From Cytophagaceae bacterium (lineage in GTDB: Bacteria; Bacteroidota; Bacteroidia; Cytophagales; Spirosomataceae), in assembly GCA_027491315.1 (NCBI GenBank), contig JAIXWL010000001.1, positions 186,001-250,000 of the forward strand: a stretch of DNA of 64,000 nucleotides, written 5' to 3'. Both the position numbers and the translations under genes were made by a program. The notes under the pieces are model-generated. The model saw only the letters and a program-made list of their open reading frames with translations. It was not told where the DNA came from and made no database searches. This document shows, piece after piece, positions 11,123 through 60,801 of the stretch (position 1 is its first letter; every line of letters starts with the position of its first letter).

Positions 11123-12532
11123 ATGCTTCTTTCTCTTCTATTAAGTTCTTTTATTGGTTTTAGTAGTACCACAGCAATCAAAGATACCCTGAATCATACT
11201 TCGGTAGATTTCTTGGCTGTCGGATCAAGCGATTCCATGAATCCTTTTTGGACAAGAAGTTTACAGTATGGAACTGTACCCGTAGAAAATCCTACGGGAA
11301 TTATTCGAGCTAGAACGGGCAAATGGTATCATCCCAAAAAAGATGTTGATTGGACCTTCCGGGTTGAAACAACTGGCTGGTTAGGAAAAGAATCCAAATT
11401 TTTACTTTCAGAAGCTTATGTTGGCCTCAAAAAAGGAGCATTTGAAATTTGGGCTGGATCCAAAAGAGAAGTAATTGGATTGGGAGATACTACTTTGACA
11501 GGTGGATTTTTTATTTGGTCGGGTAATGCCTTACCCATGCCAAAAGTCCATATAGGCACTCGAAATTATGTAAATCTTTTACAAGATTGGTTAGGAGTCA
11601 ATTTTCAATTGGCACATGGATGGTTCGATAATCAAGGAGCTATTGCCAACTCTTATTTACATCAAAAATCCCTTTACTTGCGTTTGGGGCAGCCTCAATC
11701 TACTTTAAATGTTTACCTAGGTTATAATCATCAAGCCCAATGGGGAGGAAGTAGAAAAGATCCCAAAGGAAGTATTTATGACGTATATCCTTCCGATTTC
11801 AACACATTTACCAAGGTATTATTAGGTACAGGGGAAGGCATTTTGCCAGATGATGATGAAAATAATAAATACGGAAACCACTTAGGTAGTTTGGACATGG
11901 GCCTTCGCTATCAAAATGACTTTGTAGAAATTTTACTATACCGCCAAAATCCCTATGAATCGGATAGGATTTGGTCATTAAACACAATAGACGATGGTCT
12001 GACGGGCCTTTCATTTAAGTTCAAAGAAGCTAAAATCATAGAAGGCTTTAGTTTAGAATACCTGTATACGGGTAATCAAGGAACTTACCAGAGCATTTTG
12101 GGAAAATTATTGAATAAGCAGGATCAGGATTATCCCAATATGGTTAATTATTTCAATGTTCGAGGAAGAGATGGATGGATATTTCAAGGCAGAGGTTTAG
12201 GAACTCCATTAATCATTATGGATCAAGAAAGTCAACAAGGTGGAGGGCTTTCATTTTCTTATAATGTCCTTAGATCCATTTATGTAGGTATCCGAGGTAC
12301 CTTAGCGCAGCAAATTCATTGGATGGCAAGGCTTTCCTCCACATCTTATGATTATCCAGTTATTCCAGCCAATAGCCCAAATTCTTATTTAAAACAAATC
12401 TCCGCTTCATTAAGCCTACAAAAACAAGTCAATAAACGGGTAGGGATAAGTATTCAGTTAGCCACTGACCAAGGAGATCGCACTAAAAATACCTTCGGAG
12501 GCACGCTCGGACTGAAATATAGTTTCCGTTAG
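11123..12532 (+). CDS. Wzi-like capsule assembly outer-membrane protein (copy 1)
   Basis: A 469-residue beta-barrel of the capsule-assembly Wzi family (PF14052 type) with a signal peptide (LLLSSFIGFSSTTA). Family features: MNPFWTRSLQYGTVP near residue 36, EIWAGSKREVIGLGDTTLTG, KVHIGTRNYVN and LAHGWFDNQG. Wzi proteins bind capsular polysaccharide at the surface. It is a clear paralogue of the protein at 16429 (for example GLGDTTLTGGFxxWSGNA and IGTR in both). Its stop lies 4 nt from the stop of the convergent SGNH gene, leaving no room for separate terminators. Confidence 0.88.
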   Translation: MLLSLLLSSFIGFSSTTAIKDTLNHTSVDFLAVGSSDSMNPFWTRSLQYGTVPVENPTGIIRARTGKWYHPKKDVDWTFRVETTGWLGKESKFLLSEAYVGLKKGAFEIWAGSKREVIGLGDTTLTGGFFIWSGNALPMPKVHIGTRNYVNLLQDWLGVNFQLAHGWFDNQGAIANSYLHQKSLYLRLGQPQSTLNVYLGYNHQAQWGGSRKDPKGSIYDVYPSDFNTFTKVLLGTGEGILPDDDENNKYGNHLGSLDMGLRYQNDFVEILLYRQNPYESDRIWSLNTIDDGLTGLSFKFKEAKIIEGFSLEYLYTGNQGTYQSILGKLLNKQDQDYPNMVNYFNVRGRDGWIFQGRGLGTPLIIMDQESQQGGGLSFSYNVLRSIYVGIRGTLAQQIHWMARLSSTSYDYPVIPANSPNSYLKQISASLSLQKQVNKRVGISIQLATDQGDRTKNTFGGTLGLKYSFR

Positions 12533-12536
12533 AGGG

Positions 12537-13475
12537 TTATTTCCAAGAATCTTCGTGGGCTTTGATGTATTTCACTAGGCCCTGAGAGTAAATGATTGAA
12601 CCTCGTAAGTTCAAATGATTTTTATCCATCAAGTGCTCCGAACGAGACACGCTTCTTAAAAATGAAGAATCATACTCCCATTTAGAATCTTTTGGAATTA
12701 AGTGATAAAGTGGAACTGAATATTTTAATTCACTTTTATCTAGAGTAGTTACTGGGAGAAAAAATATCACTTTAAATTCCCCTCTTTTTTGATTTTTTAA
12801 TAAACTATATAATTTATCAATTGATATTGAGTCATATAGCTTATTAAAATTGAACACTAAATTTTCTTTAGTGATAAATGATTCCAGTTTGTGATAACTA
12901 TTAACATTATGAGGAACAAATCCAATTGTTTGATTTTTTGAAATATCATCAGTGGACAATAGTTGTTTTAATTCATTTTGGTTGAAATTTACCCAATCTA
13001 AAAATTCGTTCTCTAAATTATTTATTTTAAAAAATATGTCTGTCTTTTGCTCAACAAAATCGAAATAAGAATTAGGAAAATTCGCCAAACCTATTGCTTT
13101 TGTGGCTGAATTAAAAGAAAGTGGATATTTTTTGTGAAACCTTGAAAGCTCAACAAAGACAATTTTATTTCCAGGCATTTTCCTAAAATAATCTGCTAAA
13201 TAAAGATTTTGGGCCAAACTGCTCCCTGAAATCCCAATATTAATGGAATTCCAATATTTTAAAGAATCATTTAATAAAAAGGTATTTACTCCAAGCATAA
13301 CTCGGCTTGACCCCACATAAAATATTGTTTTTGAATTTGAGTTTAATGCTTCAATACAAGTTTTAATTTTAAAATGGTTACTATTTGAATTTCTATCTTT
13401 GCCCTGCTTTAAAATAATCGAAAAAATCAACAAAATAATTAGAATCCAACACCCAAACTTAAATAAAACTTGCAT
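12537..13475 (-). CDS. Membrane-anchored SGNH-like protein, partner of the MBOAT acyltransferase
   Basis: A 312-residue protein with an N-terminal membrane anchor (residues 5-23) and then a single extracytoplasmic domain. The GSSR at residues 55-58 resembles the block I serine turn of DltD/AlgX/AlgJ-type SGNH proteins. SGSSLAQNL (near residue 85) could hold the Gly block. DKNHLNLRG with Asp284 and His287 fits the DxxH catalytic pair. In alginate, D-alanyl-teichoic-acid and peptidoglycan acetylation systems such a protein takes the acyl group from the MBOAT protein and places it on the polymer. It is the last gene of the ACP-P450-MBOAT operon, 1 nt after the MBOAT stop. Overall similarity to named families is weak, so the role is inferred from motifs and context. 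Confidence 0.72.
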   Translation of the reverse strand: MQVLFKFGCWILIILLIFSIILKQGKDRNSNSNHFKIKTCIEALNSNSKTIFYVGSSRVMLGVNTFLLNDSLKYWNSINIGISGSSLAQNLYLADYFRKMPGNKIVFVELSRFHKKYPLSFNSATKAIGLANFPNSYFDFVEQKTDIFFKINNLENEFLDWVNFNQNELKQLLSTDDISKNQTIGFVPHNVNSYHKLESFITKENLVFNFNKLYDSISIDKLYSLLKNQKRGEFKVIFFLPVTTLDKSELKYSVPLYHLIPKDSKWEYDSSFLRSVSRSEHLMDKNHLNLRGSIIYSQGLVKYIKAHEDSWK

Positions 13476-13476
13476 T

Positions 13477-14847
13477 TTAAAATCTTAAGTAATAATTATC
13501 CAATCCTCCATAAAAAAGCCCAAACAAAACAATTGAGGAAATTATAAATAAATATAAAATTCTACGTCTCAATGGAGCTAAAGATTCAAAATACATATCC
13601 ATTCTAAGATTTTTAGCATCTAAATGAATTAAATCTACAACTATAAATGAAAGTAAAATGATAAAAATATTTCGCTTATAAAGTAAAAATACATCTATGG
13701 GGAAAAAATCGTCAAGGAGAAATCTCTCCATTAGCTCATTCAAGTCTTTAAACGTAAAAATTAGGGCAACTAAAGAACTCAACAAAATATGATAACCTAC
13801 CCCAAGAAAATACCTAAATGAAAATTTTACCTTAACATTATTTTTAATAAGTAATTTTTCGAAAAGAATCCACATTCCATTAATCCCTCCCCATATAAAA
13901 TATTGCCAATTCATACCATGCCACAAACCTATCAACAAATAAGAAAATAATAAAAGTAAGTAAGGTTTATCGCGCCAAAACCGAAATTTAATTTGCCAAT
14001 AAAAAAAATAATCTCGAAACCATTCATTCAAAGTAATATGCCAACCCTTCCAAAATTCATGTCGATTGGAAGAAAAATAAACTCGTTTTTGAAAATTATC
14101 TTTTAATCGTACATTAAATATTTCCGATACACCTTGAAAGAAATCCACAAATGAACTAAAACTAAAATAGATATAAAAGAAGAAAACCATACCAATTAGA
14201 ATGGTCCACCAACCAGCGGTTTCACTGTCCTTCAAGGAAATAAAAAGTTGATTTAATCGGTGCGCTACGACAAAATTCTTGAAGCTCCCCCATAGAATCA
14301 ATCTTAAGCCATTAGTAAATGATTTTTGAGATATGGAAGCTTGTGCAAACTGACCATTTATATATTTGAAACGGTGCAAAGGGCCAGACATTAAGGTAGG
14401 GAAATACAATAAATAGGCTAATAGTTTAAAAAATGAATCTGCCGGTTTCACAAAACCTTTTTTTATATCTATTAAATAACTAATAGCATTAAAAACAAAG
14501 AAACTTAGGCCTAAAACTTCCCAAGAAATTTCAAAATCAAAAAAGTTTATTCTAGTTACTTGGAGGAGACTCCCCCAATTCTCTACTAGCTTATATATAA
14601 CCAATGACAACAATAAAATGGTAGTTCCAACCACTTTCCATGATTTCTCCGATTGAATTGTATTACCACAATAATAGGTAATAATACACCCCAATATTAA
14701 TATAAGAAGCGTGAAAGGCATGAAAAGGCCTAGGGTAATCACGGAACTTAGGAATAGGGATTTCCATATTTGCTTTTTAAAAATCAAACTAAAACAAATG
14801 GATAAAATAAGAAAGATAAGACTAGAGAATAGTCCAATTTGTGCCAT
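13477..14847 (-). CDS. MBOAT family O-acyltransferase (AlgI/PatA/DltB type)
   Basis: A 456-residue integral membrane protein with about 11-12 hydrophobic segments. It has the two MBOAT hallmarks: FWKGWHITLNEWFRDYFFY with His270 and GLWHGMNWQYFIWG with the presumed catalytic His310. FPTLMSGPLHRF (149-160) also fits AlgI-type proteins. These proteins move an acyl group from a cytoplasmic thioester to the outer face, for transfer to a polysaccharide. It lies 1 nt downstream of the P450 stop and 1 nt upstream of the SGNH gene. The natural donor here may be the ACP at 16015 after action by the P450; this is inference. Confidence 0.9.
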   Translation of the reverse strand: MAQIGLFSSLIFLILSICFSLIFKKQIWKSLFLSSVITLGLFMPFTLLILILGCIITYYCGNTIQSEKSWKVVGTTILLLSLVIYKLVENWGSLLQVTRINFFDFEISWEVLGLSFFVFNAISYLIDIKKGFVKPADSFFKLLAYLLYFPTLMSGPLHRFKYINGQFAQASISQKSFTNGLRLILWGSFKNFVVAHRLNQLFISLKDSETAGWWTILIGMVFFFYIYFSFSSFVDFFQGVSEIFNVRLKDNFQKRVYFSSNRHEFWKGWHITLNEWFRDYFFYWQIKFRFWRDKPYLLLLFSYLLIGLWHGMNWQYFIWGGINGMWILFEKLLIKNNVKVKFSFRYFLGVGYHILLSSLVALIFTFKDLNELMERFLLDDFFPIDVFLLYKRNIFIILLSFIVVDLIHLDAKNLRMDMYFESLAPLRRRILYLFIISSIVLFGLFYGGLDNYYLRF

Positions 14848-14848
14848 A

Positions 14849-16036
14849 TTATTTCAATTTTATCATGGCACTCTGTAGTGTTCTCATAAATATTTGATTG
14901 GCCCATTGTAAAGGTTCTAATGTATCTACCTCAAATTTTTGAAGAAACTCCACTATAGGTTTAAGTCCAATCTCCATTTCTTTTCGGGCAATTAAAGCCC
15001 CTAAACATAAATGCGACCCTGCGCCAAAAGCTAAATGTGGATTAACTTTACGATCAAAAATAATTTCATCGGGGGCTTCAAAAATTTCCTCATCTCGATT
15101 AGCACTTGCTATTCCCAAAATAAATCGAGTCCCTGGTTTATATTGCCTACCTTGAATAATAACAACTTTTTTATTGATTCTAACTGTAAATTGTAAGGGA
15201 GAGACAAATCGTATACTCTCTTCCGTTAGCAATTTGATTGCTTTATTATCTGCCTCCAAAACAAATTTTATCAACTTGGGACTAGATAATAATAGATAAA
15301 TTGAATAGGATAAATTGTCCTTAGAAGTTTCAAAAAATGCCATTAATGTCACGGCTAAAATAGAATAATAATCCTCTTCTTCATATTCTAATCCCTTCAA
15401 TTCTTTTTTCAACTTAGCCTTAAAATTTGATTCGGCAAAAAGCCCCACTCCTTCAATGAAACACTCATTCATTTTAAGGTACATTTGTTTTGAAACAAAT
15501 AAATCCTGACTTCGCGCAGCCAAATTAGAAAACTCAACTACCTTATCTAGGCTAGTGAAATCCTTTAAACCAATAAACTGGCTTAAAATTTGATAAATGA
15601 AATGTTTAGAAAAATCAACTAAATCTAATTTTTTATGATGTTTAAAATAGAATATGGTTTCCTGTACTGATTCTTGAATTAATTGATCGAAATCATAACT
15701 AAACAATACTTTTCCCAAAGCAATCCGTAACTTTCTATGGGATTCTCCATTTAAATACATCAACCACTTATTAGTGGCCTTAGCTAGAAAAGGGCATTGC
15801 GAATTGTTTTTAAAAATGTAACTCTCCTTACTGGCAAAATACGTTGATAAACTACTTACTTCAAAGTCCTCAGAATCTAAAATAGGTGCTATATCGCGGT
15901 ATTTGAACAAAATCACATTACCAAAACTATCTTGTTGAATAGGATTACTCGTTCTACATTGAGCATAAATCGCATAGGGATCATTAAAATAATTTGGAGC
16001 AAATGGATTCCATTTTATAGCCGATTTTCCATCCAT
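14849..16036 (-). CDS. Cytochrome P450
   Basis: A 395-residue soluble bacterial P450. The heme-binding loop is FGAGSHLCLG with ligand Cys344. The ExxR pair is E273-S-I-R276. The I-helix shows AFFETSKDNL (233-242) with the Glu236/Thr237 proton-relay position. The segment NGESHRKLRIALG (96-108) is the C-helix heme-propionate site. I take ATG 16036 as start; a TTG two codons upstream is possible. Either start overlaps the ACP gene (22 nt with ATG), so the two are translated together. P450s coupled to carrier proteins (BioI type, or those acting on PCP-bound amino acids) oxidise the carrier-bound substrate. No ferredoxin or ferredoxin reductase lies beside it. The gene is AT-rich compared with flanking genes. 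Confidence 0.92.
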   Translation of the reverse strand: MDGKSAIKWNPFAPNYFNDPYAIYAQCRTSNPIQQDSFGNVILFKYRDIAPILDSEDFEVSSLSTYFASKESYIFKNNSQCPFLAKATNKWLMYLNGESHRKLRIALGKVLFSYDFDQLIQESVQETIFYFKHHKKLDLVDFSKHFIYQILSQFIGLKDFTSLDKVVEFSNLAARSQDLFVSKQMYLKMNECFIEGVGLFAESNFKAKLKKELKGLEYEEEDYYSILAVTLMAFFETSKDNLSYSIYLLLSSPKLIKFVLEADNKAIKLLTEESIRFVSPLQFTVRINKKVVIIQGRQYKPGTRFILGIASANRDEEIFEAPDEIIFDRKVNPHLAFGAGSHLCLGALIARKEMEIGLKPIVEFLQKFEVDTLEPLQWANQIFMRTLQSAMIKLK

Positions 16037-16245
16037 AAACAAAGCTTATTGATTGTATTAAACTCCGAGAATATGGAAGGATCAATACTTTCCAACTGAA
16101 ATTCAGTTTCCATTTCAAAAGAAATAGACACTATAGATAAAGAATCTAGATCAAAACTTTCAAAAGTAGAATCACAATCTACCTCTTGTTCTGATATTGA
16201 AGCCTCTAATGCAATTTGTTTAATTAACCAATTCCTAAAATTCAT
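16015..16245 (-). CDS. Acyl carrier protein (cassette with P450 and MBOAT)
   Basis: A 76-residue four-helix carrier protein. The 4'-phosphopantetheine site is FDLDSLS with Ser35 near the middle, and the protein is strongly acidic (ESIDPSIFSEF in the last loop). It is the first gene of the operon and overlaps the P450. Unlike a fatty-acid ACP gene it is not beside fabF/fabD. It resembles stand-alone carriers of secondary metabolism or DltC more than AcpP. No phosphopantetheinyl transferase or adenylating enzyme is seen nearby. Confidence 0.88.
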   Translation of the reverse strand: MNFRNWLIKQIALEASISEQEVDCDSTFESFDLDSLSIVSISFEMETEFQLESIDPSIFSEFNTINKLCLWMENRL

Positions 16246-16428: not shown

Positions 16429-17916
16429 ATGGACGAAAACCACATGTCCCAAAAAAGAAACAAAACCTTTTCAATAAAGAACTTCTTATTCTGTTGGGGA
16501 TTATTTCTATTCCTACATTTAGAGGTAAAAGGTAACCCAGACACCAGCATTCATGCGAGCATAGAAGCCCAAGTTTTAGCTTCTGATGCTGGTGTAAGTC
16601 CATTTTGGATACGAAGTCTACAATATGGTCAAGTTCCCCTTGAAAATACCAGTGCTGTACTAAAAGCTTGGTCAGGCAAAAACTACCATTTAAAGAAAAA
16701 ATACGATTGGAAATATGAACTGGAAGCTACCGGTTGGGTAGGCAAACAGAATGATTTTTGGCTAACCCAAGCTTATATAAGTGGTAGAAGGGGCAAATGG
16801 GAATTATGGGCCGGTAGGAGAAAAGAAGTATATGGGTTAGGAGATACTACTTTAACTGGCGGGTTTTACGCTTGGTCGGGGAATGCCGTACCAATACCCA
16901 AAGTTCAAATCGGAACCAGAGATTACCTCAATTTTGCTAAAGGATGGTTAGGGGTTCACATGACCTTTTCTCATGGGTGGATGGATAATCAAGGCCCGAC
17001 AATACATGGTTTTTTACACCAAAAAAGTCTTTATGGTCGTTTTGGCAAGCCCGATAGTTTCATCAATGTATTCGCAGGACTAAACCACCAAGTGATGTGG
17101 GGTGGAGAATCTAAAATAAAAACAGGCGGAGATTATGATTACTACCCAAGTAGCCTTAATTCCTATTTTTATGTGGTCACTGTTTTAAAAGATCGAGAGA
17201 TTATTCCTACAGATACTTTAGCAAAATATGATGATTTAGGTAATCAATTCGGAAATCATTTGGGTTCATTTGATGTAGCCATAAAATTTCAGCCTACTTG
17301 GGGAGAAGTTCTAGTTTATAAACAATCTGCCTATGAGACTGGCAGAGGCTTTGCATTAACTCAAATCAATGACGGACTGACTGGAATTTCCATAAAAAAT
17401 AAAAGCGGAGGCATCATAGATCAAATCACCTTGGAATACCTCTACACAGCAAATCAAGGAAATTATATTTCTGGATTAGCTGAATTCCTAAAAATCAAAG
17501 ACCCCCATCAAATAGAAATTGAATCCTATTTTAATAATGGAAGGGGTGGATGGCAATATTGGGGAAAAGGAATTGGGACCCCTATCATGGTGATAGACAA
17601 TGAAAGTCAAGGAAATAAAGGATTAGGATTTACCCTGAATGCTATTAAATCCTATTACTTAGGTATTTCAGGCCATTTTAGCGATACCTTTTCCTGGAAA
17701 ACCAGAATATCACATTCATATTATGCTAGTCCTAGGAACCATTTAGCCCCAAGATTAAGTGACGCAGATTTTATATCCCAATTTTCAGGAATGATATCAC
17801 TTCAGAAAATATTGAGTGAAAAGTGTAGTTTAACCCTACAATTCGGATATGATGAAGGAAGACGAGTGAAGAATACACTCGGTGCTAGCTTTGGAATAAA
17901 ATATATCCTTCTTTAA
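16429..17916 (+). CDS. Wzi-like capsule assembly outer-membrane protein (copy 2)
   Basis: A 495-residue Wzi-family barrel. A signal segment follows a basic start (residues about 18-35, LFCWGLFLFLHLEVKG). The core is homologous along its length to the copy at 11123: SPFWIRSLQYGQVP, ELWAGRRKEVYGLGDTTLTG, KVQIGTRDYLN and GTPIMVIDNESQG. ATG 16444 is an alternative start giving a more compact signal peptide. It ends 1 nt from the stop of the convergent epimerase gene. It probably anchors or organises the surface polysaccharide made by the adjoining locus. Confidence 0.88.
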   Translation: MDENHMSQKRNKTFSIKNFLFCWGLFLFLHLEVKGNPDTSIHASIEAQVLASDAGVSPFWIRSLQYGQVPLENTSAVLKAWSGKNYHLKKKYDWKYELEATGWVGKQNDFWLTQAYISGRRGKWELWAGRRKEVYGLGDTTLTGGFYAWSGNAVPIPKVQIGTRDYLNFAKGWLGVHMTFSHGWMDNQGPTIHGFLHQKSLYGRFGKPDSFINVFAGLNHQVMWGGESKIKTGGDYDYYPSSLNSYFYVVTVLKDREIIPTDTLAKYDDLGNQFGNHLGSFDVAIKFQPTWGEVLVYKQSAYETGRGFALTQINDGLTGISIKNKSGGIIDQITLEYLYTANQGNYISGLAEFLKIKDPHQIEIESYFNNGRGGWQYWGKGIGTPIMVIDNESQGNKGLGFTLNAIKSYYLGISGHFSDTFSWKTRISHSYYASPRNHLAPRLSDADFISQFSGMISLQKILSEKCSLTLQFGYDEGRRVKNTLGASFGIKYILL

Positions 17917-19996: not shown

Positions 19997-21637
19997 TTAA
20001 AATGCTAAATTCAATATTATTTTTTGAGTCTCATTCATTTCAATTTCTAGACAAATTGTAGGAACAGAAAGTCCAAAGTTAGGATGATAAGTTGAATTTA
20101 CCTGCTTGATTTCAACCATTTTCTGACCATCTTCCGCAAATAAAGTGGCCAAATGTTTACCATTTTTTTCTAAAGTAAAAACATGCATATCCTGCTTCAT
20201 AGTAATATCAGGATGTAAGAAATACCTCGCTTTTGCCTTTCTAATTTTACCGAATACCTGATCTTGAATGCTCAACCTTTGTCCTTCCTTTTTCCAAATT
20301 CTCCTATGAACGATATCTTTAGAAAACCTTTGATAACCGGTATGCGAGCAAGCCAAAGTGAAATCTGCACCAACTTGATCCCATTCTAAATCCATTGGTT
20401 CAGCTCGCCTAGCAACTCTGAACCCAGACCATACTTCCGATGAATTTTCTCCATTTACTTCTACCGTAGAATGGGCACTTGTGCTTCTTTGCCTTAACCG
20501 TTCAGAACTTAAACCATAAAGCGAAGTTCCAGAATTAACAAAGACTCGTTCACCCTGTAAAGCTAATTCGAAGGATAATGAATCAGCGTGTGCATGTCCT
20601 GGCAAATAGCTTGGGCCAATTTTACCTACGTCAGCTATTAGTTTAAATTCTTTACTTTGAGCCACAAAAAAACCAGATGCTTGTAATAAACTAGCTTCTG
20701 ATTTATGCGCTATTTTGTCAAGTCTCAAGCCCAAAAATTTGGCAAAAGACTCTAATTCATCCCTTGTAGGTGCAATTCCGTTAGCACAATCATTAAAATG
20801 AGCCAATTCATCTTGTGAATAAGACATGAGCGCTAACCAAACTAATCCCTTTTGAATTTTAAGTGCCACTTCAGCTTGTGGAAATATGGGTACTTGTGAT
20901 TGACAAATTGCAAAAAGATCCAACAAATCCTCCATTCCCAAAGCATGATACATGGGACTTAATTCAAAATGAGCTCCATCATCTAAAAATTGCTCATTTA
21001 ATTCTTTTTTGAGGATTTCTAAACCCTGATTTAAATATTGCTCAGCCTCAGCTCCTTCAAAAAATACCCCTGCAAAAATCAGTGCTTTAGCATTCATGAA
21101 TAAATGATTGCCCAAAAGGTGATATTCAGGCCTATCTCCCAAATAGCGCACTTGATTCCACAAGCTAGCCATGGCTTTGTCAGTCAATGATTGGGTACTC
21201 CAATGCCACTTAATCCAATTAATAATTCGCAAAGAAATCGGGTAGGACTCCCAGCCAGTTCCCTTCCCAAAAGGATTTTCATCCATCCAGTGATGTAAGA
21301 GACTTATCACTTGATCAATCTTTTCGGGATGCTTAAATGCAGGATCATTAATGAAATCGAAATAATGTAAATTATATCGCCAAAGTTTAGAAACTTGATT
21401 ATTATCCCAGCCTATTTCAGACAAACAATTTGTCTCTGATAAAAAAGTGAAATGATTTAAATCATGTGTACTTGATTTTTTAGCAATAAATCCTTGCTGA
21501 AAAGTAGTTTTACTTAGTTTTGGATAAATTGATTTTTCCTGAATATTTCTTGGCAAAAAATGAACAAACCGACCTATAATCTGGGCCGGTTTTAAGAACT
21601 TAATGGTATGAAACAGTAAAGAGATTTTACGCCACAT
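19997..21637 (-). CDS. Heparinase II/III family protein (copy 1)
   Basis: A 546-residue protein with an N-terminal alpha/alpha toroid (WRYNLHYFDFIND and GTGWESYPISLRIINWIKW, about residues 88-165) and a C-terminal beta-sandwich with the heparinase II/III motif LPGHAHADSLSFEL near residue 345, whose His and nearby Tyr take part in uronate elimination. No signal peptide is visible, so it may act in the cytoplasm or on lipid-linked material. Such proteins are common in exopolysaccharide loci beside GT4 and WecB genes, as here, but their reaction there is not established. Confidence 0.85.
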   Translation of the reverse strand: MWRKISLLFHTIKFLKPAQIIGRFVHFLPRNIQEKSIYPKLSKTTFQQGFIAKKSSTHDLNHFTFLSETNCLSEIGWDNNQVSKLWRYNLHYFDFINDPAFKHPEKIDQVISLLHHWMDENPFGKGTGWESYPISLRIINWIKWHWSTQSLTDKAMASLWNQVRYLGDRPEYHLLGNHLFMNAKALIFAGVFFEGAEAEQYLNQGLEILKKELNEQFLDDGAHFELSPMYHALGMEDLLDLFAICQSQVPIFPQAEVALKIQKGLVWLALMSYSQDELAHFNDCANGIAPTRDELESFAKFLGLRLDKIAHKSEASLLQASGFFVAQSKEFKLIADVGKIGPSYLPGHAHADSLSFELALQGERVFVNSGTSLYGLSSERLRQRSTSAHSTVEVNGENSSEVWSGFRVARRAEPMDLEWDQVGADFTLACSHTGYQRFSKDIVHRRIWKKEGQRLSIQDQVFGKIRKAKARYFLHPDITMKQDMHVFTLEKNGKHLATLFAEDGQKMVEIKQVNSTYHPNFGLSVPTICLEIEMNETQKIILNLAF

Positions 21638-22733: not shown

Positions 22734-24854
22734 TTAAACGCTAATCCAAGTTCCTTCACGCAAACTCTTTAATGCTGCCAATGAGGTTTTTGTTGTATTA
22801 TATATTTCTTCGAATGGAATGAGTGGTCCTTTGCCTTGTTTTACATGTTCTATCAACGATTTAAATTGGTCTTTGTGCCCTTTATCCAAAGTTCCTCCCA
22901 TGGAACTAAAGCCCTTAAAACCATAAGCACTTAGTTTCCTGAAATTATCTACAATTAATGTTCTTCCTTGCGAATATACCTCAATCCGCTCTTTGGCATA
23001 GGCTTTACTACCATTGGCGAAGTAATTGATAACTCCCTGGGAGCCATTTTCAAATTTCAAGGTAATGATGGCATTGTCAGTTTGCTCTGTAGGATTTTTA
23101 CCCAAAGCACTCATGGTCACTTCGGCCACATTACTTCCTGTTAAATACACCATCAAATCAATAAAGTGACAGGCCTCTCCCACAATCCTTCCGCCTCCTA
23201 CTTGTAAATCCTGAACCCATACATCAACAGGGATAAAACCAGCATTCATTGTCGCAATAATATTCAGAGAATCTGTACTGCCACCCAACAAGGTTTTAGC
23301 CTGCTTAATAAAAGGAGAAAATCTTCTGTTAAACCCAACGGTTAAGGTAAGAGACTCTTCTTTTGTTTGATATACTTGTTTGATTTCTTCTAATTGGACT
23401 TCATTGATAGCTAAAGGTTTCTCCACAAAAACATGTTTACCTGCTAACAATGATTCTTTAACCATAAGGGCATGTGCATCGTGTCGCGTAGTTATCAGCA
23501 CTAAATCCACTTCCTCATCCTTTAAAATTTGTTGATAGTCGGTCGTACTATATTCAAATCCATACTTATTAGCCAGTGATTTGGCTGTAAGCCCACCGGC
23601 ACTAGAAATATACTTGTACTGAGCACCACTATTTTTCAAGGCAGGCATCATGGTCATTTTAGTAAAATTACCTGCACCAATTACGCCAATGACACCCGAA
23701 GACTTTTGAGCTTGAAAAGCTTTTCCTGAAACAACCGTCTGATTCCAATCAATGGTATCAGGATATTCTAAAATGGAAGCTATAGAGCCTCCACCCATTT
23801 TATTATAAATCTGTAAATAATCCTGGAGAGGTACTCTTTCTGTAATTAAGTCGGCAACATGCAATCTTTTTGTCGCCAAAGCAGTCAATATAGCTTCAAA
23901 ATTCCTTTTCTCAGTCCACCTTACATAGCCAATGGGATAATCAAGCCCCTTTTGCTCATAATCTTCATCATATCTTCCTGGACCATAAGAGCAGGATACT
24001 TGAAAACTTAACTCCTTCTTGAAAAAATCAGCCCGTTGAATGTCCAATCCAATGACGCCTACTAAGACTATTTTACCACGCTTCCGACTCATTTGGGCGG
24101 CTTGACTAATCACTTCGTCACTTTTAGTAGAGGCCGTAATGATAACGGCATCGGCCCCCACTTGATTGGTGAGTGATTCCACTGTTTTAACCACATCCGT
24201 ATGATTGGATTGAAAAGCATGAACACCCTTCTTTTGAGCTAGTTCAACTTTCTGAATATCAAAATCAATGCCAATCACCTGACAGCCATTGGCCAATAAT
24301 AATTCTGCCGTAATCAAACCAATTAGACCTAATCCAATAACCACCACTGTTTCTCCAAAACTTGGATTGATCAAGCGAATTCCTTGTAAACCAATGGACC
24401 CAATGACGGTAAAAGCCGCTTCCTCATCACTGACTTGATCAGGAATTTTAGCCACTAAATTTTGAGGAATACAAACCACTTCTGCATGATGTCCATTACT
24501 AGCCACACGGTCCCCAATCGCAAATTCTTTAACCCCTTCTCCTACAGCAACCACTTCCCCTACATTGCAATAGCCCAAAGGTAGAGGCTCATCTAACTTA
24601 TTAAATACAGCCTCCAAGGTTGGCATTAAACCTTCCGTTTTAATCTTATCTAAAACCTGTTTTACCTTATCGGGCTGTTGCCTAGCTTTTGAAATGAGGT
24701 TCCCTTTGCCAAACTCCACCAACATTTTCTCGGTACCCAAAGAAACTAAGGAACGCCTCGTTTTAATCAGAACAGTTCCTTTTCTAACCAAGGGTGCGGG
24801 AACCTCCTCTAAGAGGGTATCTCCTTTTTTTAAATCTTGAATTATTTGTAGCAT
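22734..24854 (-). CDS. Bi-domain oxidoreductase: MDR alcohol dehydrogenase-like plus Gfo/Idh/MocA (copy 1)
   Basis: The start MLQIIQDLKKGD at 24854 gives 706 residues; the frame upstream of it is not conserved. Residues about 1-345 form a medium-chain dehydrogenase with the NAD site VVIGLGLIGLI. Residues about 365-700 form a Gfo/Idh/MocA domain with GVIGAGNFTK and EKPLAINE. The structural cysteines of zinc MDRs are not evident. The same fusion occurs at 38416. These fusions are frequent in Bacteroidota and proteobacterial exopolysaccharide loci; a nucleotide-sugar redox reaction is likely but unproved. It lies 1 nt upstream of wecB. Confidence 0.87.
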   Translation of the reverse strand: MLQIIQDLKKGDTLLEEVPAPLVRKGTVLIKTRRSLVSLGTEKMLVEFGKGNLISKARQQPDKVKQVLDKIKTEGLMPTLEAVFNKLDEPLPLGYCNVGEVVAVGEGVKEFAIGDRVASNGHHAEVVCIPQNLVAKIPDQVSDEEAAFTVIGSIGLQGIRLINPSFGETVVVIGLGLIGLITAELLLANGCQVIGIDFDIQKVELAQKKGVHAFQSNHTDVVKTVESLTNQVGADAVIITASTKSDEVISQAAQMSRKRGKIVLVGVIGLDIQRADFFKKELSFQVSCSYGPGRYDEDYEQKGLDYPIGYVRWTEKRNFEAILTALATKRLHVADLITERVPLQDYLQIYNKMGGGSIASILEYPDTIDWNQTVVSGKAFQAQKSSGVIGVIGAGNFTKMTMMPALKNSGAQYKYISSAGGLTAKSLANKYGFEYSTTDYQQILKDEEVDLVLITTRHDAHALMVKESLLAGKHVFVEKPLAINEVQLEEIKQVYQTKEESLTLTVGFNRRFSPFIKQAKTLLGGSTDSLNIIATMNAGFIPVDVWVQDLQVGGGRIVGEACHFIDLMVYLTGSNVAEVTMSALGKNPTEQTDNAIITLKFENGSQGVINYFANGSKAYAKERIEVYSQGRTLIVDNFRKLSAYGFKGFSSMGGTLDKGHKDQFKSLIEHVKQGKGPLIPFEEIYNTTKTSLAALKSLREGTWISV

Positions 24855-24856
24855 TG

Positions 24857-25666
24857 TTATTTTATTGCCTTTATGAGCATAAATAATCCATGTCCAGGTA
24901 ACAATTTTTTTACTAATGTTCTTGGAAATAGGCATCTCGCTATTGTAAGTAATAAACCTTGATGTCTTTGGCCTGCTTTTGACTCTAACAAATCGCCATG
25001 AGTTAAAACACAATTAATTTCTACCTTACTAAAGTTAGCAAACATAATTTTGGCTTCTTCTTTTGAATAGGCTTTTGTGCCAGGACTTTCCAAATACTTG
25101 TCATAGATTTCTTTCAGATTAGTAAATGGTCTTAATTTTAATAATGCATATCTTATCCAAAGCATATATCCTACTAAACTATAAGTATGATAAATCATTA
25201 TTTTAACCTCTCCTCCTTTTTTTGTAATTCTATAAATCTCATCTATTGCCTTCTTGGTATTAGGACTATGGTGAATTACTCCCCATGAATATACTAAATC
25301 GAAATTCTCATCAGGAAAACTTAAATTTTCAGCATCACCTTTCTTTAAATTAGAATATAACTCAAATATTGAAAGTCGTTTTGCCGTATTGAAAATTGCT
25401 CTTTCTGTTAAGTCTATACCATATAATTCAGCTCCAGCCTCTGCAAATTTTTGATGATCTGCTCCTAAGCCTACTCCTATTTCTAATACTTTTTTATTTC
25501 TATACCTTTCGAAATCTGCAAATGTAAGTATATACGGTTCTAGCTCATATCGACTTTTTTCTTGAGCTAAAAATGCTTCTTTTTCTGTATTACCATGTAA
25601 ATACAATGATTCTCCACAAGAGGCCAAATTCCAAAACTCTTCAACTAATTCTTTATCTTTCTCCAA
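24857..25666 (-). CDS. Class I SAM-dependent methyltransferase
   Basis: The fold is clear: motif I VLEIGVGLGADHQKFAEAGA, YGIDLTERAI, then FDLVYSWGVIHHSPNTKKAI (motif post-I to II) and KGGEVKIMIYHTYSL. The frame extends upstream to ATG 25741, but that part overlaps and translates the conserved tail of the AsnB gene out of frame. I therefore prefer TTG 25666, one base after the AsnB stop (about 270 residues); conserved sequence begins at EEFWNLASCGE. The methyl acceptor is probably a sugar or a glycan end. It sits between AsnB copy 1 and bi-domain oxidoreductase copy 1. Confidence 0.82.
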   Translation of the reverse strand: MEKDKELVEEFWNLASCGESLYLHGNTEKEAFLAQEKSRYELEPYILTFADFERYRNKKVLEIGVGLGADHQKFAEAGAELYGIDLTERAIFNTAKRLSIFELYSNLKKGDAENLSFPDENFDLVYSWGVIHHSPNTKKAIDEIYRITKKGGEVKIMIYHTYSLVGYMLWIRYALLKLRPFTNLKEIYDKYLESPGTKAYSKEEAKIMFANFSKVEINCVLTHGDLLESKAGQRHQGLLLTIARCLFPRTLVKKLLPGHGLFMLIKAIK

Positions 25667-31831: not shown

Positions 31832-33949
31832 TTACCAAACAATCTTAGTGATAGTATTAGGCCCTGTCATATATGCTGACAATCTTTGATTAGGAATAAT
31901 AATACCATAACCTTCGCTATAAGCTCCTTCCTCAACTTTAGGGTTTGATGCTCCATCCATTTGAATAAAAATAGAAAGGCCAGATAAATGCATTAGTTCA
32001 ACAGATAATTGATTATCATTTGAACTAATAATTTTGCACTTAACATCAGGATGAAGGTTAAAAGATATTTTTCTTTCCAATTCAGAAGGAAAATTATCTT
32101 CGATAATTAAGCTGTTTTCAGATAACTCAAATTTACGTTTGTGCTTAACTGAATATCCAAAATGGTGCCCAATTATTATATTTCGCCCAAAGAATCTTAG
32201 ATTTGGAAAAGAACGTTCTCTTAATACAAATAAACCATGCATAGAATCTGGCCATTTGTCCTGTTCTTGACCTCCTGCCATTAACGTAGAATGTGCGGCA
32301 GTTCCTCTGAACTTATTTCGAATCTTGGGATTTGCAGTATATATTGGGCATCCACCATCAACAATTAAATCCAACCTATTAATGTTTAATTCAAATGAGA
32401 GTTTATCATTATGGTTATGTCCTCCTCTTCCATTTTGACCGTTCTGGCCACAAGTAACCAATAAAAACACCCTATTCCTTCGTATGATGGCCATGCCAGC
32501 ATCTTTGTGAAGAATATTATCCTTAACAAGTGCTGGATTAACAACCTTCTCCAAGTCAATTCCCCCAGATAATAAATTTGCTTCAAAATTATCCAGCTCT
32601 GACATAATTGAACGCTGGCCTAATAATTTCCGAATTCCTGCAACCAGGTTACCATGATTCAACAAATTATATTCAGGGTTCGGAATTAATTTGTGGACTC
32701 GGGCTGAATCATTATCCCCAATTTGCGGTACAAGGCCGTTAGGTTTAATCAGGCTTTCTGTAAAATCAGCCATTCTAGAAAGGCTAATATAAAACTCCTT
32801 TGGAAAAATCCGTCCATCATCATTTAAATTTAGCAAGGTTTTAGTCGTGTTCCTAAGAGCGGGTCTAACTTTATGCTGATTCGGCTCTACTTGTCTCAAT
32901 CTTACCCTTCTGGCAAGTGGTAGTCTTTCTGCAAGTGCTGCACTACTAAGAAACAACTCTGCTACCAAACGGTGATAATTTGTCGACCCCTCATGGGATG
33001 CGCCATCATCATAAACCTCCCGATTCATTTCTGAAATAAGCTCCTGTAATCCAAATAATAACCAGCGATCTGATTCTGGGAACTCAGGAAAAGCGCATGC
33101 TATATAAATTAACCCCACTATATTTGATAAATAATGATTCCCTGTTGAGCTTTCATAATATTCAAGATTATTTTCAATAAAACATCCGTGCTGATGTAAT
33201 GAGATCTTAACCTTACTTATAATTTCGGGATACTGTTCTATAGCCTGACCAAAATACCGGAGCCCCCAAATCCAGTTTATTGCTCTAAGTGCTACATCCA
33301 TAGTGCAACCCCAATTTACACCATATCCATAAGGATTAGAAACAATCCAGTCTAAAACTTCCAATAGAAACTCATGTGAAGATTCAGAAAGCGATCCTGA
33401 AGCTAACAATCCTATGTGCTGAAAGCGGGATAATTCTCTTGGGATTTTAATCTCGACACCAGGCTCGGGTGCTACCTTAACGTTCAGGTAAAACTGTGAT
33501 TCTTCCCACACATAACCTGATCTAAAATCTTTATGCCAATCTATTAATTTATAATTTTCTACTAAGTTTAACGGTAATCTCACAGCAATTTTCCGGATTC
33601 TTTCCATCCGATTTTCATCATTCGCTTGAATACAAAAAGTGAATTTTGAAAGAATTTTCAGTTTACGATCATAAAAATCTTCTAGAGCATTTAAATCCTT
33701 ATTCAACCAATTTTCAGGTTGATTTGCTGGTAAACATTCAGAATTCCCCGGCAAGGTTGAATTATTGTCCCATAGCCCATCTTTATCTAAAATTGTTACT
33801 GGAATATAACTTTCAATTTTCTTTAGTGATGTTTGATAGTGACTATGAGTGCCATACCTGTTTCTTATTTTCTCAGGCAGAAACCTTAAGTGATACCCCA
33901 ATTCCTTAAATATTTTTGAATAAAGAAGTGCTTTTTTTTTTATACCCAT
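31832..33949 (-). CDS. Heparinase II/III family protein (copy 2)
   Basis: A 705-residue protein, larger than copy 1. The alpha/alpha domain contains NPYGYGVNWGCTMDVALRAINWIW (near residue 215) and SSTGNHYLSNIVGLIYIA. The beta-sandwich holds GRGGHNHNDKLSFELNI, the His/Asp motif of the family. No signal peptide is visible. It overlaps the Wzy-like gene by one base (TAATG). Its partner genes (AsnB, bi-domain oxidoreductase, GT4) match those around copy 1, which suggests a repeated functional module. Confidence 0.85.
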   Translation of the reverse strand: MGIKKKALLYSKIFKELGYHLRFLPEKIRNRYGTHSHYQTSLKKIESYIPVTILDKDGLWDNNSTLPGNSECLPANQPENWLNKDLNALEDFYDRKLKILSKFTFCIQANDENRMERIRKIAVRLPLNLVENYKLIDWHKDFRSGYVWEESQFYLNVKVAPEPGVEIKIPRELSRFQHIGLLASGSLSESSHEFLLEVLDWIVSNPYGYGVNWGCTMDVALRAINWIWGLRYFGQAIEQYPEIISKVKISLHQHGCFIENNLEYYESSTGNHYLSNIVGLIYIACAFPEFPESDRWLLFGLQELISEMNREVYDDGASHEGSTNYHRLVAELFLSSAALAERLPLARRVRLRQVEPNQHKVRPALRNTTKTLLNLNDDGRIFPKEFYISLSRMADFTESLIKPNGLVPQIGDNDSARVHKLIPNPEYNLLNHGNLVAGIRKLLGQRSIMSELDNFEANLLSGGIDLEKVVNPALVKDNILHKDAGMAIIRRNRVFLLVTCGQNGQNGRGGHNHNDKLSFELNINRLDLIVDGGCPIYTANPKIRNKFRGTAAHSTLMAGGQEQDKWPDSMHGLFVLRERSFPNLRFFGRNIIIGHHFGYSVKHKRKFELSENSLIIEDNFPSELERKISFNLHPDVKCKIISSNDNQLSVELMHLSGLSIFIQMDGASNPKVEEGAYSEGYGIIIPNQRLSAYMTGPNTITKIVW

Positions 33950-38415: not shown

Positions 38416-40566
38416 TTAATTTGGTGTTGAAATTGTATTCAATAATTGTTCGACTTTAAAGCTGATTTCGGTGGCTGAAAATTGTTCTTCCAGCGTTATA
38501 GGCCATACCCCACCTTTACTTAAACAATCGGCTAAGGCTGATAACTCCTCAAGATGGCCTTTACCTGAACAATTGTAAACTTTTTTTCCTTTTGAGCTAT
38601 AATGAATAATTTCCTTATAGTCGTTAAGCATAATTACCTGACCATCAAAAAATATTTCACATGACTCTTTTGGATAAGTTTTAACTCCCATACTTGTGTA
38701 AGAGAGTGTGCAGACAGATCCGTTGGAGTATTTAAGTGTTGCTATAAAATTATCATTGCTTTTCCATTGCGAACCAATGGGTGTGATATAATCAACACTT
38801 ACTGAAATACAAAACGAACCCGTAAAATAATTGAATAAATCATAAATGTGACATGCTTCTCCAATATTGCGACCACCCCCTTCTATTCCTTGAACCCAAA
38901 CATCATTTGCAATGAAACCTGCATTCATTTTATAGTTTATCATTAATGGTGTGGTGGTCTCAGAGGTAAGCTTTTTAATTATCCCAGCCGTACTTGAAAA
39001 GCGCCTGTTAAAGCCTGTCATTAATACCGGGGCTTCTGCATTTGACTGATAGAAATTTTTAATATCAGCAATCTCTTGACTCGTCATAGCCAATGGCTTC
39101 TCAACGAATACATTTTTTCCTGATTTAAGTGCATCCAAGGTCATTGAAGCATGCAAATTATGCCTTGTACATATCATAACAAGATTTACCTCAGGGTCGG
39201 AAAGCAACTCAGCATAATCAGTTGTTGCAAACTTAGCTTCAAACTGTTTGGCTACACCAAGGGCATTAGAACCCGTTCGGTTCATAACTGAATATATCTC
39301 GAATTCACTATTCAGCTGTTTCAGATTTGGCAAATGAGTTGATTGGGCAAAGCCTCCTGCTCCGGCAATTCCCACCTTTATGATACCGGGATTACCTTGA
39401 TTAGTTACTGGCAACTTAACTAATCTTGAAATCGTTGCATCCTTGGAATCAACCGGATAGTTTAGAACAATAACCATCGACTTAAGTAATCCTGATTTAA
39501 GATCAGCATAAACTTCAGGCGCGTCGGTTAATGAAAAACTTTTATCAATTAATGCGTCGAGTTGAATACTTCCTTGATTAAGTAAACGTAAATACTCCTG
39601 CATATTTCTGTTTTCTGTCCATCTGACATAAGCGAATGGATAATCCTGTCCATCCTCTTCATAAAGAGAATCATATCTTCCAGGTCCATAGGAAGTTGAA
39701 ATAAGAAAATCAATTTCCTTTCTATAAAAATCTTCCCTGGAAAAGTCTAATGATACACTTCCTACGAGAACAACTTTGCCCTTTTTACGGCAAATTTTCA
39801 TCGACTGGTTAATAATATCATCAGCCGTAGCTGCTGCAGTGATAATTACAGTATCCGCACCAAGATTATTGGTGTATAGATTTACTCTTTCTACCACATC
39901 TTGTAAAACTGGGTTTATTCCAGCCTCCATGCCACTTTTTGTTCCTAAATCAATGCGTTTCTGATCCAGATCAATTCCAATCACACGGCACCCCGCGTTT
40001 TTCAAAAGTTGCACAGTCAATTGCCCGAGAATACCAAGACCAAAGACTACTACAAACTCCCCTAACACGGGATTAGCACGACGAACCCCTTGTAAAGCAA
40101 TTGCCCCCAGAGTAACAGTAGATGCAATATCTAAACTCATATCTGGATCTAATTTGACTACAAGATTTACCGGGACTTCGATTAATTCTGCATGGTTGGC
40201 ATAACCTGCCCCAGCGCAAGCAACCCGATCACCAACTGATATACCTGTTACATTTATACCAGTAGAGATAACAATACCTGACGCAGAATAGCCTATTTGC
40301 TGTGCAGCACCAATCTTACCTTGAAGTAAACTTTTGGCATTGCTAAATCCTTTCTCCTTTACAAGATCAAAGACTTTTTTAATATACTCCGGCCTCTTCA
40401 AAAGTCGTTTGTAAATAGGCTCACCTGATCCCTTTACAGTTGTCATTTCAGTGCCGGGACTTATGCATGAATAGTAAACCTGTACTAAAACATTATTGGG
40501 GCTAACTAACGGAGCTGGAACCTGTTCAACCACAACCTGACCTTTCTTCACTAATAACTGTTTCAT
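38416..40566 (-). CDS. Bi-domain oxidoreductase: MDR dehydrogenase-like plus Gfo/Idh/MocA (copy 2)
   Basis: A 716-residue fusion with the same plan as 22734. The MDR half begins VEQVPAPLVSPNNVLVQVYYSCISPGTEM and has FGLGILGQLTVQLL as the NAD motif; KGKVVLVGSVSLD and STSYGPGRYD are shared with copy 1. The Gfo/Idh/MocA half has VGIAGAGGFAQSTHL and EKPLAMTSQEI. Both halves align with copy 1 throughout, so the fusion predates the duplication. Substrate unknown. Confidence 0.87.
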   Translation of the reverse strand: MKQLLVKKGQVVVEQVPAPLVSPNNVLVQVYYSCISPGTEMTTVKGSGEPIYKRLLKRPEYIKKVFDLVKEKGFSNAKSLLQGKIGAAQQIGYSASGIVISTGINVTGISVGDRVACAGAGYANHAELIEVPVNLVVKLDPDMSLDIASTVTLGAIALQGVRRANPVLGEFVVVFGLGILGQLTVQLLKNAGCRVIGIDLDQKRIDLGTKSGMEAGINPVLQDVVERVNLYTNNLGADTVIITAAATADDIINQSMKICRKKGKVVLVGSVSLDFSREDFYRKEIDFLISTSYGPGRYDSLYEEDGQDYPFAYVRWTENRNMQEYLRLLNQGSIQLDALIDKSFSLTDAPEVYADLKSGLLKSMVIVLNYPVDSKDATISRLVKLPVTNQGNPGIIKVGIAGAGGFAQSTHLPNLKQLNSEFEIYSVMNRTGSNALGVAKQFEAKFATTDYAELLSDPEVNLVMICTRHNLHASMTLDALKSGKNVFVEKPLAMTSQEIADIKNFYQSNAEAPVLMTGFNRRFSSTAGIIKKLTSETTTPLMINYKMNAGFIANDVWVQGIEGGGRNIGEACHIYDLFNYFTGSFCISVSVDYITPIGSQWKSNDNFIATLKYSNGSVCTLSYTSMGVKTYPKESCEIFFDGQVIMLNDYKEIIHYSSKGKKVYNCSGKGHLEELSALADCLSKGGVWPITLEEQFSATEISFKVEQLLNTISTPN

Positions 40567-46952: not shown

Positions 46953-47180
46953 TTAGACAGTTTTTGAATCGAGGGAGTTTTCAATTGCTTTCAAGGAAGT
47001 CAGTTCGACTATCTCATCATCCTCAAAACGCACATTAAATTCTTCCTCTAAAGCCACAATAAGATTCATCTGATTTAGCGAATCCCAGTTAGGAATGGTT
47101 GTTGAGTCATCTGAATCTTTAATATCCGCCGCATTTATTTCAAACACAGCCGCCATAATTTCTTTAATTTTTTCTTTCAT
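46953..47180 (-). CDS. Acyl carrier protein (FkbH partner)
   Basis: A 75-residue carrier protein with the phosphopantetheine site NWDSLNQMN (Ser34) and an acidic helix ALEEEFNVRFEDDEI. It overlaps the FkbH-like gene by 17 nt. In other clusters FkbH proteins load a three-carbon glyceryl unit on such stand-alone carriers. It is only distantly like the ACP at 16015. Confidence 0.92.
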   Translation of the reverse strand: MKEKIKEIMAAVFEINAADIKDSDDSTTIPNWDSLNQMNLIVALEEEFNVRFEDDEIVELTSLKAIENSLDSKTV

Positions 47181-48900
47181 ATTTTACCGATATATAGTTT
47201 ATAGCTACTTTTTTTTGATTCTTTATAATCAATTCGTAATTCTTTAATTCCCCGAAATCACCGGTTAAAGTAAAACCTGCACGTTCATAAAAATCTTCGA
47301 CTTGTTGGTTTTTTTGCGTTTTGACATAGGATGATTTAATCTTTTTAATCCCTTTGGTTTCCAGATATAGAACCAACTCCTCCAAAAATTTAAACTCAAT
47401 GTTTCTACCAAGTACTCTGCAACTCATTAAAAAAGTATCGATCGTCGCTTCATAGTCATTAATAGAGACGAATGATTCGCCGGTTATTCCAAACCTTCCA
47501 AATTTGTCATTTACCTCAAAAGCAAAAGTGATATACTGATTTGTTTTAACAAACTCTTCGACCTGCGTAAAGGTATACCTTTTGGTAGTAAGATTAAATT
47601 GATTGGTCTTTTGGGTAAGTTGAGCCATCCTTTCAATAAGATCCTTGTGATCAATGTATATGATCATCTCCAGATCAAGTGATTCCAAATATTCATTTAT
47701 ACTCCCATAGCTATTTTTCGCCTGCTCACGCACAACCTGATCTTTGTATGACTTAACTCTTGCAACATCATCCTTAGTGCTCAGAATCGAGTAGAACAGG
47801 TCGATGTTTTTCCTGAATATTGCGGGGTATTCATACAAATTTTGGGGTACCTTTATGGTATAAACTTCCTGAAGGTATTTTTTAACCAGATTGATTTCGA
47901 AATCAGAATCATCAATGAAAACAATACTATCCAGCCCAATATTTAATTCCTTTGCTATATCCTGAAGATTAGAAACCTTGTCGTTCCAATTGACTTTTTC
48001 AATTACAATATCTGATTCTTTCAGGCTCATTGATTCATGATTATTAATAACTTTCTTTACATCTTCGGGATTATTTTTTGAGTTCAGACCAATAATAACA
48101 CCTCTTGAGGCAAGCTCTTTTGCCATAAACTGTACTTCTTCAAAGAATACACCTTTGGCAGATTTTCCAGACATATCTATTCCACTTTCACCGTCTTCCC
48201 CCAAAATTCCTTTCCATAGTGTATTATCACAATCAAATATTAATGCCTTCTTCGACTTCCCAAAAACAGAAGTGATGATCGGGGTAATCATAGTTGAATA
48301 AGCCTCAAAGAAATCCAGAGTATATAGTGTTTTAGACGAATAATAGTTTCTAAAATCAACACTAGAGCTCACTGAAATTTTAGCAAAAATTTTATCAATA
48401 TCAAACAATACTACATTTTGCGTTTTTTTTGATTCAAGGTAATTGTTTAATTCCCTACAAATTACATCATAATTATTACGACCTATGAATTGGTGATTAA
48501 AAACTGTTGTGCTGAAATAATTAATTACAACAATGGATGTACTATTGAGGTTAGTTAAAGTATAATCGATTTCAGATTTTGTTTTTTCAATAATTGCAAA
48601 TTTTTCCGATTCGGTAAGAAGGTTAGATTTATACTGGAAGCCATCAACGATATTACACAACTCCCAGAAAATTAAAACACAGTTGCTTTTGTTAAACTGA
48701 ATGCTATCTTGGACTATATTATCAAAATTTCCACACGAGGCAATGGCATTAACCCCTATCTTTTGAAGTGGGTATTCTACTATTTGAGTAAGTTGGTTAA
48801 CGATAATGTTTGAAAGAATTTTTATATTGTATTCCTCAGAAGAATTACCTTCCTTCAACTCTTTATTTAACTTTAGAAGTTCTGAATATTTAATCTCCAT
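47164..48900 (-). CDS. FkbH-like HAD-IIIC family protein (glyceryl-ACP forming type)
   Basis: A 578-residue protein with three parts: an N-terminal SGNH-like region (residues 1-200), a HAD domain with FDCDNTLWKGILGEDG near residue 220 and FIDDSDFEINLVKK near 335, and a C-terminal GNAT-like part with QKTNQFNLTTKRYT and FGRFGITG. FkbH enzymes take glycerate from 1,3-bisphosphoglycerate, remove phosphate and attach the glyceryl group to an ACP. The overlapping ACP gene supports the same here. The methyltransferase gene ends on the base just before the FkbH start. Confidence 0.9.
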   Translation of the reverse strand: MEIKYSELLKLNKELKEGNSSEEYNIKILSNIIVNQLTQIVEYPLQKIGVNAIASCGNFDNIVQDSIQFNKSNCVLIFWELCNIVDGFQYKSNLLTESEKFAIIEKTKSEIDYTLTNLNSTSIVVINYFSTTVFNHQFIGRNNYDVICRELNNYLESKKTQNVVLFDIDKIFAKISVSSSVDFRNYYSSKTLYTLDFFEAYSTMITPIITSVFGKSKKALIFDCDNTLWKGILGEDGESGIDMSGKSAKGVFFEEVQFMAKELASRGVIIGLNSKNNPEDVKKVINNHESMSLKESDIVIEKVNWNDKVSNLQDIAKELNIGLDSIVFIDDSDFEINLVKKYLQEVYTIKVPQNLYEYPAIFRKNIDLFYSILSTKDDVARVKSYKDQVVREQAKNSYGSINEYLESLDLEMIIYIDHKDLIERMAQLTQKTNQFNLTTKRYTFTQVEEFVKTNQYITFAFEVNDKFGRFGITGESFVSINDYEATIDTFLMSCRVLGRNIEFKFLEELVLYLETKGIKKIKSSYVKTQKNQQVEDFYERAGFTLTGDFGELKNYELIIKNQKKVAINYISVKYERKN

Positions 48901-60800: not shown

Positions 60801-60801
60801 A

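Follow-up and report, generated by a model that had tools for sequence, protein, structure and literature searches.

A four-gene ACP, P450, MBOAT and SGNH cassette of Aquirufa as a candidate pathway for decorating surface polysaccharide with an oxidised, carrier-borne acyl group

The stretch analysed here, 64,000 nucleotides (nt) of contig JAIXWL010000001.1 (positions 186,001 to 250,000; assembly GCA_027491315.1) and referred to below as the window, comes from a bacterium of the genus Aquirufa with a genome of 2.9 Mb. Between window positions 12537 and 16245, open reading frame (ORF) calls place four minus-strand genes in a single operon, and these encode an acyl carrier protein (ACP), a cytochrome P450, an MBOAT acyltransferase of the AlgI/DltB type and a membrane-anchored SGNH protein. 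The genes are tightly packed, with an overlap of 22 nt between ACP and P450 and gaps of only 1 nt between P450 and MBOAT and between MBOAT and SGNH. The members of this cassette are as follows:

16015..16245, minus strand: stand-alone acyl carrier protein, 76 aa, phosphopantetheine Ser35 in LDSL, Pfam PP-binding at 1e-8
14849..16036 (from ATG), minus strand: cytochrome P450, 395 aa, Pfam p450 at 4e-13
13477..14847, minus strand: MBOAT O-acyltransferase, 456 aa, Pfam MBOAT at 1.6e-8 (above cut-off)
12537..13475, minus strand: membrane-anchored SGNH transferase, 312 aa, N-terminal anchor, Ser56 (GSSR), His287 (DKNH)

ORFs, motifs and Pfam matches all bear out the original prediction, made from the sequence alone, of a four-gene operon comprising a carrier with Ser35, a complete P450, an MBOAT with two histidines and an SGNH partner. 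The ACP is strongly acidic (isoelectric point about 4.1), and its Ser35 is present in all copies of the cassette and invariant across the six that were aligned. The P450, which is the sole P450 match in its genome, carries the marks of the superfamily, namely the heme ligand Cys344 in FGAGSHLCLG, the E273-x-x-R276 motif and the I-helix acid-alcohol pair E236-T237, and all of these are invariant in the seven copies known. The same holds for His270 (WHITLN) and His310 (GLWHG) of the MBOAT. The fourth protein gave no Pfam match and no convincing NCBIfam match, and its assignment comes from structure prediction. Its AlphaFold model (mean predicted local distance difference test score, or pLDDT, of 79.5) ranked DltD structures first in Foldseek (E-value 6.5e-4), and VIA-align paired it with TesA at Z 12 over about 160 residues and with PatB at Z 10.7, so that the SGNH fold is confirmed at the level of a predicted model.

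The same four genes occur in the same order in seven genomes, comprising five species of freshwater Aquirufa (that of the window included) and two distant metagenome-assembled genomes (MAGs) of pond Bacteroidota. Given this shared order, and given that the 22-nt, 1-nt and 1-nt spacing is exact in all five Aquirufa, the arrangement is not due to chance. The P450 and ACP genes overlap in every copy, by 22 nt in Aquirufa and by 1 nt in the pond pair, whose cassettes are identical to that of the window at only 37% of positions for the ACP, 40% for the P450, 34% for the MBOAT and 22% for the SGNH protein. Of the 59 genomes closest to that of the window, just five contain the P450 and the ACP, and these are exactly the ones with a close MBOAT (59-60% identical). 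This all-or-none occurrence in seven of seven genomes upholds the view of the cassette as one functional unit, and the linkage kept in other Aquirufa and in the pond MAGs answers the objection that such MBOAT/SGNH pairs might never be joined to an ACP or a P450 elsewhere.

A scan of 84,980 species, with one genome each and strict peptide patterns that more distant members may escape, matched four of the same Aquirufa and the two pond MAGs. Searches with the P450 or MBOAT profile revealed no further members in 395 evenly drawn Bacteroidota genomes, and there were none among 196 relatives of the pond MAG beyond the two already known and none in plasmids. By profile comparison the cassette P450 is a discrete family, since its members score about 680 bits or more and other Bacteroidota P450s seen reach at most about 124 bits. 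Around the other P450 genes fetched in the 395-genome search there was no ACP, MBOAT or SGNH gene matching the cassette profiles.

In both the PatA/PatB and the Dlt systems, the MBOAT hands the acyl group to the Tyr of a C-terminal FXYXXF motif, from which it reaches the Ser of the SGNH protein; in PatA the Tyr of this motif carries the acyl group, and envelope polymers are known substrates of MBOAT-SGNH pairs that have such a C-terminal Tyr (PMC12148441). The seven cassette MBOATs end in NYYLRF, NYYLAF or NYYFKF, with N451, Y452, Y453 and F456 invariant. The Tyr at position 3 and the Phe at position 6 of the hexapeptide thus agree with FXYXXF, and Asn replaces the Phe of position 1. Among the remaining MBOATs examined, the ending is FIYFQF in 42 and a one-letter variant of it in three, and by this comparison the altered hexapeptide (NYYLxF/NYYFKF) is a feature of the cassette family. 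With the catalytic His, the Tyr hexapeptide and the SGNH fold in place, an acyl relay from MBOAT to SGNH protein, as originally predicted, is well supported for the cassette; transfer to an exported polymer would then follow by analogy with Dlt and Pat biochemistry.

A search of solved structures with the cassette MBOAT profile found only DltB (5e-27). The notion of a specially DltB-like MBOAT was nevertheless rejected, as the protein scores 117 bits against the DltB model (cut-off 375 bits) and is outscored by ordinary Aquirufa MBOATs at 151-153 bits. That result fits one alternative account of the operon, in which the MBOAT uses acyl-CoA, like PatA, and the ACP and P450 are an unrelated co-transcribed pair. 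Such a reading also agrees with the MBOAT having its own C-terminal motif, as acyl-CoA users do, and with the statement that MBOAT-SGNH systems other than Dlt are without a carrier (PMC12148441), evidently because acyl-CoA is used. We nonetheless regard it as very unlikely, for the four-gene linkage is all-or-none down to about 40% identity, and the C-terminal motif is no argument against a carrier-borne donor, since MBOATs that keep FIYFQF, FIYAQF or similar C-termini stand beside carrier genes in another kind of operon.

These other operons, of the order FkbH-ACP-MBOAT-SGNH, were found in other Bacteroidota at two loci and a third (L173 3668-8218, L174 3245-12370 and L175 6646-11060); of the 29 nearest non-cassette MBOAT loci fetched from the 395 Bacteroidota genomes, two had an ACP gene within 1.5 kb. 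Their SGNH label goes by position and by visible GDS/GSS/GAS-type motifs, not by fold. The MBOATs end in FIYFQF, FIYEQF, FIYAQF or FIYAMF, and the ACP is of the EWDSL type. One operon has genes for a MaoC-like dehydratase and a short-chain dehydrogenase/reductase inserted, and there are also two carrier/MBOAT sets next to each other. Domains of the FkbH type attach a glycerate unit to a carrier, with 1,3-bisphosphoglycerate as its likely source (PMC13122637), and the operons are probably carrier-fed MBOAT systems with a glyceryl-type donor. Their existence makes a carrier-bound donor plausible for such MBOATs outside Dlt. They also put the P450 of the cassette in the position that FkbH, as the donor-making enzyme, holds in these parallel operons. 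By this analogy, the cassette would be the P450 variant within a broader class of carrier-fed MBOAT-SGNH systems. The dedicated carrier proposed at the outset as the source of the donor thus gains support from the parallel and from the retention of the ACP with the MBOAT-SGNH pair in seven of seven genomes, and a carrier feed of the cassette MBOAT is likely.

What the P450 does is harder to read. That it acts on an acyl group while this is bound to the ACP is plausible, and we infer it from linkage only, because the P450 and ACP genes overlap, the P450 is single in its genome and the cassette lacks an enzyme for activating a free acid. One could also conceive that the ACP feeds the MBOAT and that the P450 works elsewhere, on the free acid before loading, on a sugar nucleotide or on the acylated glycan precursor. 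In favor of this, the similarity of the P450 to known enzymes does not single out carrier-binding P450s. The overlap of the two genes in all seven copies, and the conservation of the cassette without a free-acid activating enzyme, argue the other way, and we consider a P450 acting away from the carrier unlikely.

Loading of the ACP was likewise considered. The AMP-binding enzymes of the window's genome resemble, by length and sequence, an acetyl-CoA synthetase, two long-chain acyl-CoA synthetases, a malonyl-CoA synthetase and MenE, and none of them lies near the cassette. As the AMP-binding set is not specific to cassette-bearing genomes, the ACP is likely loaded by shared enzymes, for example through fatty-acid synthesis or acyl-pantetheine transfer. 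The window's own FkbH/ACP genes (46953-48900) are not supported as a loader: in the four other Aquirufa, the roughly 60 kb that adjoin the cassette toward the polysaccharide cluster yielded no FkbH, nor did the pond-MAG stretches searched.

Taken together, the cassette probably O-acylates an exported polymer by way of a P450-oxidised, ACP-borne donor and an MBOAT-SGNH relay. In such a scheme, housekeeping enzymes would load an acyl group onto the dedicated ACP, and the P450 would oxidise it there, two steps suggested by gene linkage alone. At the cytoplasmic face, the MBOAT would then receive the acyl group of the ACP and pass it to Tyr453 of NYYLRF at the outer face, from which Ser56 of the SGNH protein would accept it and esterify the polymer, both steps being modeled on DltB/DltX/DltD and PatA/PatB. 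The resulting ester would present a hydroxylated or otherwise oxidised acyl group on the surface polysaccharide, possibly one that is chain-cleaved, by analogy with BioI.

A number of observations tell against this scheme. The best match of the P450 profile in the PDB was BioI (3ejb, BioI crystallised with acyl-ACP), and two unrelated Bacteroidota P450s, run as controls, gave BioI first and second. Because unrelated P450s give the same match, the resemblance carries no weight and was rejected as evidence for ACP binding, and the BioI-type likeness on which the original prediction had drawn for oxidation of acyl-ACP is unusable. The P450 model (pLDDT 61) is too weak for an analysis of an ACP-binding surface. 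The cassette contains no redox partner for the P450 and, as foreseen, no adenylating enzyme of the DltA type, leaving the ACP with no loader there. Nor was there a candidate for a cassette-specific adenylating enzyme elsewhere, as AMP-binding enzymes number five in each of the five cassette-positive Aquirufa and five or six in the eight cassette-free ones. In a pond locus about 6 kb lie between the cassette and the closest glycosyltransferase-like gene, and the link to an acceptor is positional. Finally, the predicted active site of the SGNH protein held only in part: the Ser of GSSR (Ser56) and His287 are invariant among cassette copies, but Asp284 of DxxH gives way to Asn in three of the five Aquirufa copies (both pond copies keep Asp). 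Since Ser and His stay while Asp284 varies, a Ser-His dyad may suffice in this SGNH transferase.

The surroundings of the cassette bear on the identity of the acceptor. The window's copy sits between two wzi-like genes, the second of which is divergent from the ACP gene:

11123..12532, plus strand: Wzi-like capsule assembly protein, flanking and outside the cassette, Pfam PF14052 at 1.3e-18
16429..17916, plus strand: second Wzi-like protein, flanking and outside the cassette, Pfam PF14052 at 2.5e-12

All Aquirufa cassettes adjoin wzi and other polysaccharide genes, including those for glycosyltransferases, and from this position in a polysaccharide cluster the acceptor is most likely the surface polysaccharide that the neighboring genes make. 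Within Aquirufa, mean identity falls from 81% for the ACP through 76% for the P450 and 66% for the MBOAT to 45% for the SGNH protein (neighboring genes, 78-86%), and conservation that is highest on the donor side and lowest on the acceptor side is what an unchanging donor serving differing polymers would lead one to expect.

It is also conceivable that a small molecule or a lipid is the product of the ACP and P450, and that the MBOAT-SGNH pair acylates that product, or a lipid, and not a surface polysaccharide. The cassette ACP does resemble stand-alone ACPs of the natural-product type, and the pond-MAG cassettes have no directly flanking polysaccharide genes. The absence of any synthase, ligase or exporter from the cassette, the polysaccharide genes beside every Aquirufa copy and the envelope polymers known as substrates of MBOAT-SGNH pairs with a C-terminal Tyr motif (PMC12148441) all speak against a small molecule or lipid, and we give this explanation little chance.

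Elsewhere in the genus all four genes are missing together. In one cassette-free Aquirufa (G005), 108 nt separate the orthologous wzi genes and the neighbors on either side are unchanged, apparently an empty site. The GC content of the cassette, 0.300 against a window mean of 0.359, is close to the minimum for segments of this length, with 8 of 1206 GC windows equally low and all of these overlapping the cassette. Both findings are compatible with gain or loss of the block and do not determine the direction. In A. ecclesiirivi (G033; L034 8394-9833) the second wzi is missing between an epimerase gene and the cassette, the order of which is otherwise as usual.

Of the characterized systems, Dlt (DltA, DltB, DltC, DltD and DltX) shares with the cassette a carrier protein, an MBOAT, an SGNH partner and the logic of an acyl-Tyr relay. 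Unlike Dlt, the cassette has no DltA-type ligase and no separate DltX (the 1-nt gaps leave no room for one inside the operon), its Tyr motif is fused to an MBOAT that falls far under the DltB cut-off, a P450 is added and the host is Gram-negative. PatA/PatB and AlgI-type systems share the MBOAT with its own C-terminal Tyr hexapeptide, the separate SGNH protein and the exported glycan (PMC12148441), but PatA uses acetyl-CoA, and these systems have neither the carrier nor the P450 of the cassette. The FkbH operons share the dedicated ACP beside an MBOAT and an SGNH-like protein, and differ in that their donor comes from the FkbH enzyme, probably as glyceryl-ACP, whereas the cassette has a P450 instead and an ACP with LDSL rather than EWDSL. 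BioI, like the cassette P450, is a P450 associated with an ACP, although the match to it is nonspecific by the control P450s; it belongs to biotin synthesis, with neither an MBOAT nor an SGNH protein as partner.

A literature search among open-licence papers found no description of the P450 cassette or of the FkbH-ACP-MBOAT-SGNH arrangement. The claim that no four-part plan of this kind had been described stands to that extent, but given the FkbH parallels for a carrier feed, the novel element is the P450 and not the carrier feed itself. We are evenly divided on whether it is the first pathway for acylating an envelope polymer to have its donor oxidised by a P450 on a dedicated carrier before MBOAT acyl-Tyr export. 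The cassette and the FkbH operons suggest that Gram-negative bacteria have a class of carrier-fed MBOAT-SGNH systems able to customise the acyl group on the carrier ahead of export. If this is true, a much wider range of acyl groups could decorate bacterial surfaces, and a cassette of four genes is small enough for reconstitution.

Further along the window, the segment 46953-51809 (minus strand) encodes an FkbH enzyme with its own ACP and, beside them, a methyltransferase, an N-acetyltransferase resembling PseH, a MaoC-like dehydratase and a homologue of Old Yellow Enzyme; this set probably makes a carrier-borne acyl donor with which a nonulosonic acid would be N-acylated. Near it, at 55990-59033, are genes that by inspection are NeuB-like, formyltransferase-like and deacetylase-like. 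HisF-like, HisH-like and amidotransferase-like genes at 60015-63377 (minus strand), judged by inspection to be of the WbuZ/AglZ and PseA/WbpG type, suggest an acetamidino sugar in the polysaccharide. Parts of the cluster are duplicated on the minus strand, with two heparinase II/III-like proteins (19997-21637 and 31832-33949), three asparagine-synthetase-like proteins (at 25668, 28672 and 36392) and two fused dehydrogenase/oxidoreductase proteins (22734-25013 and 38416-40566).

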